From: Enterobacter ludwigii
Lineage (GTDB): Bacteria > Pseudomonadota > Gammaproteobacteria > Enterobacterales > Enterobacteriaceae
Assembly: GCF_001750725.1 (NCBI RefSeq)
Contig: NZ_CP017279.1
Location: 1,054,001-1,118,000 of the forward strand
Direction: 5' to 3'
DNA length: 64,000 nt
Shown: in pieces, positions 11,165-58,215 of the stretch
Layout: every line of letters starts with the position of its first letter
Position numbering within the stretch: the stretch's first letter is position 1
Translations under genes and position numbers: made by a program
The notes under the pieces: generated by a model
What the model was told of the DNA's origin: nothing
Seen by the model: the letters and a program-made list of their open reading frames with translations, nothing else
The model's database searches: none

Positions 11165-11261
11165 GCAAAAAAAAGCCCACTCTAGAGTGGGCAAGAAATA
11201 CTGGAAGCAATGTGAGCAATGTCGTACTGAATACCTGAGTGTTTAGCTCAACTATTCAGTG
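11165..11261 (-). ncRNA. RyhB-type iron-responsive small RNA (RyhB-2/IsrE/RfrB position)
   Basis: On the minus strand the RNA contains CATTGCTCACATTGCTTCCA, the conserved pairing core of RyhB, with the adjoining ACGA before it and GTATT after it. It ends with a perfect GCCCAC-TCTAGA-GTGGGC hairpin (11175-11192) followed by eight U. Near its 5' end, ACTGAATA can pair with TATTCAGT as a first stem-loop. A sigma-70 promoter and a Fur-like palindrome precede it. RyhB represses mRNAs for iron-using proteins with Hfq when iron is scarce. The location next to yeaQ is that of the second RyhB copy of Salmonella, so this is probably the RyhB-2 orthologue. The 5' end is estimated from the promoter. Confidence 0.9.
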
Positions 11262-27140: not shown

Positions 27141-28400
27141 TTACTCTTTGGGTTTAATTCCCAGCGACTCCGCCAGCTGTTTCGCTAACTGGTTATTGTC
27201 ATCCGCGCCGTACTCCCAGAACATCGCCCCGGCGAGACCTTTCTCCTTGATGTAATCCGCTTTGATGGCGACGGAACGCGGGTTCTCATAGGAAAGGGCA
27301 AACAGCGCCTTGCCGTCCGCCGCATTCACTGAAAGCCACGGCACTTGCGCCCGTTCGTCCCAGTGTTCGGTAAAACGCTTCTGCGGATCGTTTAAGAGCT
27401 TTTTCACAATATCGTTGTACTTCACATACGTATCTTTGGTCAGGTCGTAGCCCAGTGACGCGAATAAGCCGGTTTCCTTAGGTCCAAAGTAGGGCTGGGT
27501 CACCGGATGGTTTTGCGCATCGGGTTTTGTCCAGTCAATACCGGGCTCCACGGCGCGTTTCGGCACGCGGCCGTAAAAACCAATCCCGAGGTTCATCTGT
27601 TGCGGCTTCAGCCCGGCCGCCAGATAGTTGTTCACCACAAAATCCACGCTGTATTTGTCTGCGGCGGCCACCGTTGGCCAGTCGCTGGAGTCATACAGAT
27701 TGGCGTTGAAATACTGTGTGCCATACGCCATGTCGTAGGTCATCAGGTTGATGTAGTCGAGCAGCGGGGCAATGGCCTTCACATCCACCCAGCTTTTTGG
27801 ACTTTCTGCATTTGCCCCTACCGCGATGGTGACCAGCTTTTTATGGCCGAAGGCGGCGCGCAATTCTTTCAGCAGTGCGGTGAAGTTATCGCGATCGGCT
27901 GGCGTGCTGGCCACCAGTCCCCATGCACCATTTACCGGGTATTCCCAGTCAAGATCGATGCCGTCGAGTGCATATTTTTCGACAATCTCCTGAGCCGAGC
28001 GGATAAACACCGCACGGCTCTCTTGGGTCGCGGCTGCGCCGGAGAAGCCACGCGCACCCCATCCGCCCACGGACAGCAGCACTTTCAGGTTTGGATTTTG
28101 CTTACGCAGCGTCGGGATTAGCGCCAGATCGGCGGCGACTTTTGGCGACAGCCAGATCTGATGAAGTTTCGCCGGATCTTTCAGCGCAGCATGGGTTTCG
28201 TCTTTCTCATCGTTATAGACCAGACCAAATGAGTAGTTCAGGTGGGTAATCTGACGAACGTCGAGCGTATTGATATCACCACCGGGACCGGCGGTGACAT
28301 CGCCACCGCCATTAAAATATCCCACAGACATCAGGGGCGTGGCGGAAGCAACTGACGCGCAAAGCAGGGGTAATGCTGCCAGCAAAGGCAAACGTTTCAT
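27141..28400 (-). CDS. Family 18 chitinase, exported
   Basis: From ATG 28400 the protein has 419 residues: a signal peptide (MKRLPLLAALPLLCASVASA) and a single GH18 catalytic domain. The hallmark DGIDLDWEYP holds the catalytic DxxDxDxE, and SVGGWGARGFS, INLMTYDMAYG and GAMFWEYGADD are the other conserved strands. No chitin-binding module is present. It should hydrolyse chitin or chitooligosaccharides in the periplasm or outside. In E. coli K-12 this interval holds ydjE-ydjI instead, so the gene is accessory. Its ribosome site AGAGGA lies in a 12-nt match to the ChiX sRNA seed complement, and a CGCCACG/CGTGGCG hairpin precedes it (28433-28454). Confidence 0.92.
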   Translation of the reverse strand: MKRLPLLAALPLLCASVASATPLMSVGYFNGGGDVTAGPGGDINTLDVRQITHLNYSFGLVYNDEKDETHAALKDPAKLHQIWLSPKVAADLALIPTLRKQNPNLKVLLSVGGWGARGFSGAAATQESRAVFIRSAQEIVEKYALDGIDLDWEYPVNGAWGLVASTPADRDNFTALLKELRAAFGHKKLVTIAVGANAESPKSWVDVKAIAPLLDYINLMTYDMAYGTQYFNANLYDSSDWPTVAAADKYSVDFVVNNYLAAGLKPQQMNLGIGFYGRVPKRAVEPGIDWTKPDAQNHPVTQPYFGPKETGLFASLGYDLTKDTYVKYNDIVKKLLNDPQKRFTEHWDERAQVPWLSVNAADGKALFALSYENPRSVAIKADYIKEKGLAGAMFWEYGADDNNQLAKQLAESLGIKPKE

Positions 28401-28404
28401 ACAA

Positions 28405-28417
28405 GTTCCTCTTTGAC
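28405..28417 (-). promoter_or_regulatory. Predicted ChiX sRNA pairing site over the chitinase ribosome binding site
   Basis: The mRNA reads GTCAAAGAGGAAC, ending 5 nt before the ATG. GTCAAAGAGGAA is fully complementary to the ChiX seed as I remember it (TTCCTCTTTGAC). It includes the Shine-Dalgarno AGAGGA, the same arrangement as at chiP, the known ChiX target. The chb operon in this window carries the overlapping CCCGTCAAAGAG site. Confidence 0.7.
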
Positions 28418-28536
28418 TTAACAAAAATAACCACGCCACGGAAAAGACGTGGCGAAAAAACAGCCTGAAGAGAATAGCATTGCCGCTTCGCTGGTGATGC
28501 GAGGGAGTTCACTTTATGGGGAATGAGACGGGGCGT

Positions 28537-28570: not shown

Positions 28571-29212
28571 TCAGGCGTGCGTTTCCAGCCAGTCTTCCAG
28601 GGTATACAGGGTGGCGCCTTCCGCGGCCATATCCATAAACGCCTGTGCGCTGTCATGCGCCTGAATGTTCACCCCACGACAGCCGTCGGTGATGACGCTG
28701 ACGGTATAGCCTAGCTGGAGGGCGTCCAGCACGGTGAACTTCACGCAGTAATCCGTCGCCAGACCCAGCACAATCAGTTCGGTGATTTCGTGATGGCGTA
28801 ACCACCCGTCCAGCGCCGTTTTCTGGCGATGTCCGTTATCAAAGAAGGCGCTGTAGCTGTCAATAGACGGGTTTTCCCCTTTATGAAACACCGCGTCGAT
28901 GGCCTTCTGATTCAGCAGCGGATGCAGCTGCGCACCTTCCGTCTGTTGCACGCAGTGATCCGGCCAGAAGGTTTGTGCCAGGCCGTCAAGTTCACCCTGC
29001 GTGAAGGGCTCAACGCCGTGCTGGCTGGCAAAACTGCCGTGGTCAGCCGGGTGCCAGTCCTGGCTTGCGACAACCGCCTCACCCCGCGTTTTGCACCACT
29101 CAATCAGCGTATTCGCCACGTCTACGGTGCTGTCACCTTCAGCGACGGCCAGTGCGCCGCCCGCACAGAAATCATTTTGCAAATCGACCAGTAACAGGGC
29201 GCGTTGCGTCAT
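28571..29212 (-). CDS. pncA: PncA, nicotinamidase
   Basis: The 213-residue isochorismatase-fold hydrolase carries the catalytic triad Asp10 (LVDLQNDF), Lys111 (VFHKGENPS) and Cys156 (LATDYCVKF), and metal ligands in DWHPADH (Asp52, His54). It converts nicotinamide to nicotinate for NAD salvage. It follows ansA by 9 bp on the same strand, an operon as in E. coli. nadE, the last step of NAD synthesis, is also in the window. Confidence 0.96.
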   Translation of the reverse strand: MTQRALLLVDLQNDFCAGGALAVAEGDSTVDVANTLIEWCKTRGEAVVASQDWHPADHGSFASQHGVEPFTQGELDGLAQTFWPDHCVQQTEGAQLHPLLNQKAIDAVFHKGENPSIDSYSAFFDNGHRQKTALDGWLRHHEITELIVLGLATDYCVKFTVLDALQLGYTVSVITDGCRGVNIQAHDSAQAFMDMAAEGATLYTLEDWLETHA

Positions 29213-56459: not shown

Positions 56460-56777
56460 ATGGAAAAGAAACATATCTATCTGTTCTGCTCAGCAGGCAT
56501 GTCAACCTCGCTTCTGGTGTCAAAGATGCGTGCTCAGGCTGAGAAGTATGAAGTCCCGGTGGTAATCGAAGCGTTTCCGGAGACGCTGGCGGGCGAAAAG
56601 GGCCAGACAGCCGACGTCGTTTTACTGGGGCCGCAAATTGCCTATATGTTACCCGAAATTCAACGTCTGTTACCCAATAAACCGGTCGAAGTGATCGATT
56701 CGGGATTGTACGGCAAGATTGATGGTTTAGGTGTATTGAAAGCTGCTGTTGCAGCCATTAAAAAAGCTGCTAATTAA
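56460..56777 (+). CDS. chbB: ChbB, chitobiose PTS component IIB
   Basis: The 105-residue cytoplasmic protein carries the phosphorylated Cys10 in [18 protein letters not shown]. It passes phosphate from ChbA to N,N'-diacetylchitobiose as it enters through ChbC. It is first gene of chbBCARFG, 79 bp before chbC; this spacer contains the ChiX pairing site. Confidence 0.97.
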
Positions 56778-56788
56778 TTTTTATTTTT

Positions 56789-56808
56789 CCCGTCAAAGAG
56801 TTATTTCA
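56789..56808 (+). promoter_or_regulatory. ChiX sRNA trap site in the chbB-chbC spacer
   Basis: CCCGTCAAAGAG, two unpaired bases, then ATTTCA are complementary to the ChiX seed region as I remember it. In E. coli and Salmonella this chb site binds ChiX as a decoy: when chitosugars induce chb, ChiX is destroyed and the chitoporin chiP is released from repression. Confidence 0.85.
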
Positions 56809-56856: not shown

Positions 56857-58215
56857 ATGAGTAAAGTCATCGCTTCACTTGAAAAGGTACTCCTTCCTTT
56901 TGCTGTTAAAATAGGAAAGCAGCCTCACGTTAATGCCATCAAAAACGGTTTTATTAGATTAATGCCGTTGACGCTGGCTGGGGCAATGTTCGTTTTAATT
57001 AACAACGTTTTTCTGAGCTTTGGTGAAGGTTCCTTCTTTTATTCATTAGGAATTCGATTAGACGCTTCCACAATTGAAACCCTTAATGGTTTAAAAGCCA
57101 TCGGCGGCAACGTATATAACGGTACGTTAGGTATTATGTCGCTGATGGCACCTTTCTTTATTGGCATGGCACTGGCGGAAGAGCGGAAAGTGGATCCGCT
57201 GGCCGCAGGTTTATTATCCATTGCCGCCTTTATGACCGTGACGCCATACAGCGTCGGTGAGGCCTATGCCGTAGGGGCCAACTGGCTGGGGGGCGCTAAT
57301 ATCATCTCCGGTATCGTTATCGGTCTGGTGGTTGCGGAGATGTTCACCTTTATTATTCGTCGCAACTGGGTTATCCGTTTACCGGATAGCGTGCCGGCGT
57401 CCGTTTCTCGTTCATTTTCCGCGTTGATTCCAGGCTTCATTATTCTCTCCATCATGGGGATTATCGCCTGGGCGCTCTCTCATTGGGGCACTAACTTCCA
57501 CCAGATCATTATGGACTCTATCTCAACGCCGCTGGCGTCAATGGGTAGCGTGGTCGGTTGGGCGTATGTGATTTTCACCTCCCTGCTGTGGTTCTTTGGC
57601 GTGCATGGTTCACTGGCACTGGCGGCGCTGGACAGCGGTATCATGACCCCATGGGCACTGGAAAACGTTGCACTTTATCAGCAGTACGGCTCCGTTGACG
57701 CGGCGCTGGCAGCCGGTAAAACCTTCCATGTGTGGGCGAAGCCGATGCTCGACTCTTATATCTTCCTGGGGGGTACCGGGGCGACGCTGGGTCTGATCAT
57801 CGCGGTCTTTATTGTTTCTCGTCGCGCTGACCATCGTCAGGTTGCGAAGCTGGCACTGCCGTCAGGCATCTTCCAGATTAACGAGCCGATTCTGTTTGGT
57901 CTGCCAATCATCATGAACCCGGTAATGTTCATTCCGTTCATTCTGGTTCAGCCACTGTTGGCGGCCATTACCCTGACGGCCTATTACCTGGGCATTATCC
58001 CGCCCGTCACCAACATTGCGCCGTGGACTATGCCGGCGGGTCTGGGGGCGTTCTTCAACACCAACGGTAGCGTGGCTGCCTTCCTGCTGGCGATATTCAA
58101 CCTCGGGATTGCAACACTGCTCTATATGCCATTCGTGGCGATAGCAAACAAAGCTGCAACCGTTATCGATGAAGAAGAGAGCGAAGAGGATATCGCCCTC
58201 GCACTGAAATTCTAA
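56857..58215 (+). CDS. chbC: ChbC, chitobiose PTS permease IIC
   Basis: The 452-residue membrane protein of the lactose/cellobiose/chitobiose IIC family has about ten membrane segments. Conserved blocks include [23 protein letters not shown] [36 protein letters not shown] and [20 protein letters not shown]. It transports and permits phosphorylation of chitobiose. It is 79 bp after chbB and 47 bp before chbA. Confidence 0.97.

Follow-up and report, generated by a model that had tools for sequence, protein, structure and literature searches.

The small RNA ChiX (also RybC, MicM or SroB) is a classic example of an sRNA under the control of a target that traps it, and its role in chitin use, as far as the accounts consulted describe it, concerns uptake only. 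ChiX represses the chitoporin gene chiP in Escherichia coli and Salmonella. At chiP it hinders ribosomes from binding and raises Rho-dependent termination (PMC8383071), and the spacer between chbB and chbC is known as the ChiX trap in both organisms (PMC4098024; also PMC8383071). ChiZ, a 5' fragment of chiP, acts as a sponge of ChiX in E. coli (PMC7815308). Repression of a chitinase mRNA by an sRNA, as proposed below for ChiX and chiD, is known from Listeria, where the Hfq-dependent LhrA represses chiA (PMC3078929, PMC4098024); unlike in our proposal, it involves another sRNA in another organism, and the portions of these papers drawn upon describe no circuit of chitoporin and trap. In the literature searched, which was mostly without subscription papers, no chitinase is listed among the targets of this sRNA; the protein ChiX of Serratia, a peptidoglycan hydrolase, shares its name with the sRNA (PMC5778951). 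In growing Klebsiella pneumoniae, ChiX, GcvB and Spot42 make up more than two thirds of the reads in a profile of Hfq-bound sRNAs, and a word search of the main text of that study did not find the word "chitin" (PMC10907235).

The window analysed here, a stretch of 64,000 nucleotides of Enterobacter ludwigii DNA, carries on its minus strand the gene chiD (27141–28400), which encodes a GH18 chitinase of 419 aa (PF00704). The product matches the NCBIfam equivalog ChiD_Serratia (NF052619) over residues 2–416 with 888.6 bits, relative to a curated cut-off of 750 bits, and its solved relatives include 3qok and 4lgx. Judged by eye, the N-terminus MKRLPLLAALPLLCASVASA resembles a Sec signal, which makes export of ChiD plausible, with a periplasmic location at least as plausible as secretion. 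The ATG at 28400, rather than the GTG at 28439 chosen by the program that listed open reading frames, is backed as the start both by the starts of orthologues and by this signal-peptide-like N-terminus. Neighbouring genes are, we presume, pncA (28571–29212) on one side and msrB and gapA on the other. The distribution of chiD in the genus is patchy (24 of 33 members at the threshold used), and a blastn search with a reach of roughly 65–70% identity matched none of 20,395 records in an E. coli collection, which is perhaps why a ChiX target in this gene has been missed.

Read on the minus strand, positions 28417–28405 are GTCAAAGAGGAAC; TTGT comes next, then the ATG at 28400, with 5 nt between GAA and the ATG. 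This segment includes the predicted ChiX pairing site GTCAAAGAGGAA (28406–28417, minus strand), and within the site lies the Shine-Dalgarno sequence AGAGGA of the chitinase, as at chiP. A first-pass annotation of the window had pointed to this site, to its overlap with the Shine-Dalgarno and to a perfect 12-nt match with the seed of ChiX, and had named a divergent seed in this strain among the findings that would speak against it. Site, overlap and seed match were borne out with the strain's own ChiX gene (G000:C1:239571-239650; Rfam RF00368, 82.1 bits), the sole match in the genome. The encoded RNA contains ...AAATTCCTCTTTGACGGG..., which holds the exact reverse complement of the chiD site (around the seed it reads ...GATGAAATTCCTCTTTGACGGGCC...), and site and seed match at 12 of 12 nucleotides. 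The sequence over the chiD Shine-Dalgarno is a real, exact complement of the strain's own ChiX seed.

This 12-mer is rare. In the 4.95-Mb genome it has four exact matches, compared with a chance expectation of about 0.6 for a given 12-mer (both strands, even base composition assumed), and the reversed pattern has none. The four matches lie antisense to ChiX itself and upstream of chiP, chiD and a gene of glycoside hydrolase family GH1, the last three ending 5–6 nt upstream of the respective ATGs. No excess was seen at one mismatch (23 further matches against 29 for the reversed control) or with the nine-letter pattern GTCAAAGAGNNN{0,20}ATG (12 matches, two rows of which are one place, against 14 reversed), so that the genomic signal is limited to the exact complement; sites with one mismatch were dropped as candidate ChiX targets.

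The first-pass annotation had also made its case depend on conservation beyond that of an ordinary Shine-Dalgarno, and the block found in relatives answers to this description. The 10-mer GTCAAAGAGG, sought from −60 to +12 relative to the start in the best 80 of 471 chiD relatives (the named sample), is present in 65 of these 80 loci with variable flanks, and in 47 of the 65 the full 12-mer is found. Loci with the 10-mer include those of Enterobacter, Klebsiella, Citrobacter, Kluyvera, Cedecea and Buttiauxella; the 15 without it comprise all 13 from Serratia, that of Leclercia sp. 29361 (L099) and that of Trabulsiella odontotermitis strain 01 (L124), unlike a second strain of the latter species (L122), which has it. 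A draw of 246 genomes of the family gave GTCAAAGAGG in 25 of 28 readable chiD leaders (own included) and the full 12-mer in 19 of these 25; a 29th locus (L057) is a degenerate fragment and does not count among the 28, and the three leaders lacking the 10-mer (L053–L055) match Serratia leaders. The named sample and the family draw have members in common, 15 of the 80 leaders in the former recurring identically in the latter. Within Enterobacter the 10-mer was found in 22 of 24 chiD loci, and in a second genus in 13 of 14 newly fetched ones, where the single miss (L313) is a partial match. At chiD, the K. pneumoniae record CP125156 (5.37 Mb, though entered as a plasmid) reads GTCAAAGAGGAACCACTATG, and the chitinase gene there has yajD, yeaC and msrB beside it.

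Outside Serratia, then, GTCAAAGAGG is kept in 65 of 67 loci. When these 67 leaders are anchored on the Shine-Dalgarno, exactly ten of 30 columns are conserved at 90% or more, and these ten are GTCAAAGAGG. Six of the ten letters, AAGAGG, also serve as Shine-Dalgarno; GTC lies outside it, yet is conserved at 90% or more just as AAGAGG is. For comparison, the best common upstream 10-mer of neighbouring genes reaches 27 of 52 loci for pncA, 26 of 52 for ansA and 22 of 60 for msrB; gapA could not serve as a control because its whole leader is conserved. The chiD genes of Serratia use other Shine-Dalgarno sequences, CCAAAGGAG, CCCAAGGAG or similar. The two exceptions outside Serratia keep a split complement, CCGTCAA-..-GAGGAATT, for which pairing with ChiX is computed in two halves. 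Four chiD leaders without a contiguous 10-mer (L099, L124, L295 and L296) read either CCGTCAAA(attgaa)GAGGAATT or CCGTCAA(tatga)GAGGAATT.

ChiX itself was found in all 28 relatives tested: 27 of them carry a complete or partial chiD, and G179 a chiD remnant. The 12-nt seed of the sRNA is intact in all 29 genomes, own included; its core ATTCCTCTTTGAC shows no variation among them and is followed by GGG in 25 and by TGG in 4; with an invariant core there is no co-variation of seed and site to score. Three Serratia-like genomes have both ChiX and the site at chiP (L173, L230, L231), and since ChiX is there, it is not for want of the sRNA that the chiD site is absent in Serratia.

Pairing energies were computed by a home-made method that adds the opening costs of both partners to the ViennaRNA duplex energy and uses only the linker of the strain's own ChiX. 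A version in which the duplex could form over the whole of ChiX gave meaningless totals, with chiD not in first place, and the linker-limited calculation was used instead. Net energies are −11.4 kcal/mol for the strain's own chiD, −17.1 for chiP, −15.9 for the GH1 site and −16.7 for the chb spacer, the value for chiD being weaker than the other three because opening its leader costs 6.5 kcal/mol. Among 59 start regions of the window (ATG frames of at least 150 codons, chiD included, many of them surely not genes), chiD ranks first, and 1 of 500 shuffles scores as well as it does. With the strain's own ChiX, all 67 non-Serratia leaders fall at −9.37 kcal/mol or below, and all 13 Serratia leaders at −7.39 or above.

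The trap is present in the same window. As the first-pass annotation had noted, part of the chiD site recurs in the chbB-chbC spacer, as GTCAAAGAG at 56792–56800; the trap, GTCAAAGAGTTA, spans 56792–56803 on the plus strand, and the ChiX seed pairs there over the longer stretch CGTCAAAGAGTTATTTCA. Upstream of it lies a gene for the chitobiose-specific EIIB of a PTS (56460–56777, plus strand), which from sequence and translation we take to be chbB by similarity, and downstream a gene for an EIIC (56857–58215, plus strand), presumably chbC. Trap and chiD site thus share the seed complement GTCAAAGAG and differ in setting, the trap being intergenic, away from a start codon and paired also through AUUUCA, whereas the chiD site sits on a ribosome-binding site. 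Four genomes (L178, L180, L214 and L221) have the exact complement upstream of chbA, and in these the trap may have shifted its position in the chb operon.

In many relatives the ribosome-binding site of the chitinase gene carries this pairing sequence, and for that reason ChiX very probably silences the chitinase too. We consider it highly likely that the chiD mRNA is a direct target, repressed in translation as at chiP and freed by the chb trap. The basis of this reading is the exact complement, its rarity in the genome, the discrete conserved block, the favourable energy and the finding of ChiX, with an unvarying seed core, in the same genomes; pairing in the cell, repression as its direction, relief by the trap and export of ChiD are what we infer. 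In the absence of chitosugars, abundant ChiX would use its single-stranded seed (5'-UUCCUCUUUGAC-3') to pair with GUCAAAGAGGAA on the Shine-Dalgarno of chiD, and would block ribosomes and silence the gene, as it does at chiP. Chitosugars would induce chb, the chbB-chbC spacer would trap ChiX, and chitoporin, chitobiose PTS and chitinase would be released together, as the known action of the trap leads one to expect. ChiX-chiP and the predicted ChiX-chiD have in common the sRNA, the seed, a complement on the Shine-Dalgarno and the sugar pathway, and the 12-mer at the strain's own chiP is identical to that at chiD. They differ in that chiD encodes not an outer-membrane porin but a chitinase whose N-terminus is of the export type, and in that the predicted pairing is shorter and weaker. 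From its sequence, chiD is thus a strong predicted new target of a known sRNA. In many genera, the conserved site would bring chitin breakdown under the same RNA switch as uptake, and it gives a simple prediction for the Hfq RIL-seq data that exist for K. pneumoniae (PMC10907235, Dataset S3).

The match could instead reflect no more than a strong ribosome-binding site, its likeness to ChiX being incidental or a product of selection on the Shine-Dalgarno. AAAGAGG is indeed a good Shine-Dalgarno, matches with one mismatch are at chance level in the genome, and the chiD of Serratia manages with a different sequence altogether. Selection for ribosome binding leaves open, however, why GTC should be conserved at 90% or more outside the Shine-Dalgarno with the columns on either side below that level, and why a 12-mer otherwise so rare should be present at chiP as well. 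The two exceptions point the same way, since the leaders of L099 and L124 retain the complement in split form, with net energies of −11.4 and −10.1 kcal/mol. We regard this explanation as unlikely.

Two further accounts grant the pairing sequence a function and assign it differently. The chiD leader might serve mainly to titrate ChiX, a decoy in the manner of chb or ChiZ, with chiD itself little regulated. The precedent of ChiZ makes this thinkable, as does a terminator-like hairpin with a U-rich tract in the chiD leader (see below), from which a short leader RNA could conceivably arise; that hairpin lies upstream of the site, however, so an RNA ended there would be without it. Moreover, the chiD site covers the Shine-Dalgarno, as in chiP, whereas the known trap sits in a spacer and its computed pairing is the stronger one (−16.7 against −11.4 kcal/mol), and a decoy role is accordingly rated as very unlikely. 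A conserved block by itself names no reader, and in place of ChiX a protein might recognize it, or another sRNA that shares the seed. Against such a reader, to which we give hardly any credence, stands the fact that the block is the complement of ChiX and is present at its proven target chiP, the exact 12-mer occurring elsewhere in the genome only antisense to ChiX and at the GH1 gene.

Some clues on how a chiD mRNA under ChiX control might be transcribed come from the region upstream of the site. The predicted 5' leader contains a hairpin followed by a U-rich tract (28434–28454, minus strand), with 7 pairs, 2 of which show at least one two-sided change; together they score as terminator-like. 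The hairpin is kept in many genera (22 sequences, picked from site-bearing loci), and none was seen by eye in the leaders of Cedecea and Buttiauxella. A candidate extended −10 element, TGCTATTCT (28471–28479, minus strand), is suggested by a conserved TG-TA pattern in the alignment and would place the start site near 28464; a sigma-70 scan upstream of chiD found no promoter. Farther upstream, the pattern GTGA-N6-TCGCA marks a candidate CRP site, AGTGAACTCCCTCGCA (28498–28513, minus strand), centred about 41.5 before the predicted start and agreeing in 8 of 10 letters with what we take to be the CRP consensus. A score of 8/10 is reached in 55 of 68 chiD upstream regions and in 8 of 68 shuffled ones, the best match being a different sequence in some regions (e.g. 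L126, L138, L140). These features are consistent with a promoter of the CRP type ahead of the leader hairpin, in which case chiD expression would require both cAMP-CRP and release from ChiX. Two Buttiauxella loci and one from Cedecea (L138, L140 and L126) have upstream of chiD, as their best match in the CRP scan, a palindrome-like sequence of the type TTTGAGAGCGCTCTCA, which we take to resemble an operator of the LacI family.

Across the family, the pattern GTCAAAGAGGAA-N3-12-ATG matched in 69 of 246 genomes (101 rows, 99 distinct sites), with 11 matches for the reversed control. The 78 sites belonging neither to chiD nor to the strain's own genome were fetched and classified, and own and chiD sites were then added. 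By this count 37 sites belong to chiP, 19 to chiD, 4 to chbA, 3 to GH1 genes and 5 to ChiX itself (by eye, from flanking letters), so that among the identified targets only chiP outnumbers chiD. The other 31 precede unrelated or unidentified frames: KdgM porin (3), PspA (2), a Gly-rich colicin-like protein (3) and phage-like, short or other frames. Pfam was run on 8 of these 31, two of which gave no family. Since the reversed control totals 11, some of the 31 must be chance matches, and they were set aside as evidence for ChiX.

The third exact site of the strain's genome upstream of a gene (L005:1501-1512; G000:C1:3281023-3281034) lies on the ribosome-binding site of the GH1 gene (PF00232), between it and the adjoining upstream gene for a PTS EIIC (PF02378). 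The locus (L245) consists of an EIIB-EIIC-GH1-EIIA-porin cluster and, divergent from it, a LacI-type gene; EIIB, EIIA, porin and LacI were assigned by eye. In a survey of the genus, 34 of 60 genomes had a match, and all 30 loci fetched (own included) keep GTCAAAGAGG, 25 of them with the 12-mer; this conservation is weaker evidence than that at chiD because the GH1 genes are 89–97% identical to the strain's own. The GH1 site is possibly a further ChiX target, or a second trap, and the findings suggest a reach of ChiX beyond chitosugars. It is tempting to speculate, though we would rather bet against it than for it, that ChiX is a hub for beta-linked sugars in Enterobacter, one seed acting on the chitoporin, on the exported chitinase and, via the spacer between EIIC and GH1, on a beta-glucoside-type PTS operon with its porin; if that spacer were a second trap, beta-glucosides could free the chitin system.

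Other occurrences of the complement on ribosome-binding sites are noted here in their own right. It precedes a KdgM-family oligogalacturonate porin in three genomes (L217, by PF06178; L218 and L220, by eye), possibly a second type of porin under ChiX; a Gly-rich protein, nuclease-colicin-like by eye, in three genomes of different genera (L179, L184, L203); and PspA in L176 (by Pfam) and L227 (by eye). Within the window itself, the only Rfam match at gathering level is the gene of another sRNA, RyhB, at 11168–11231.
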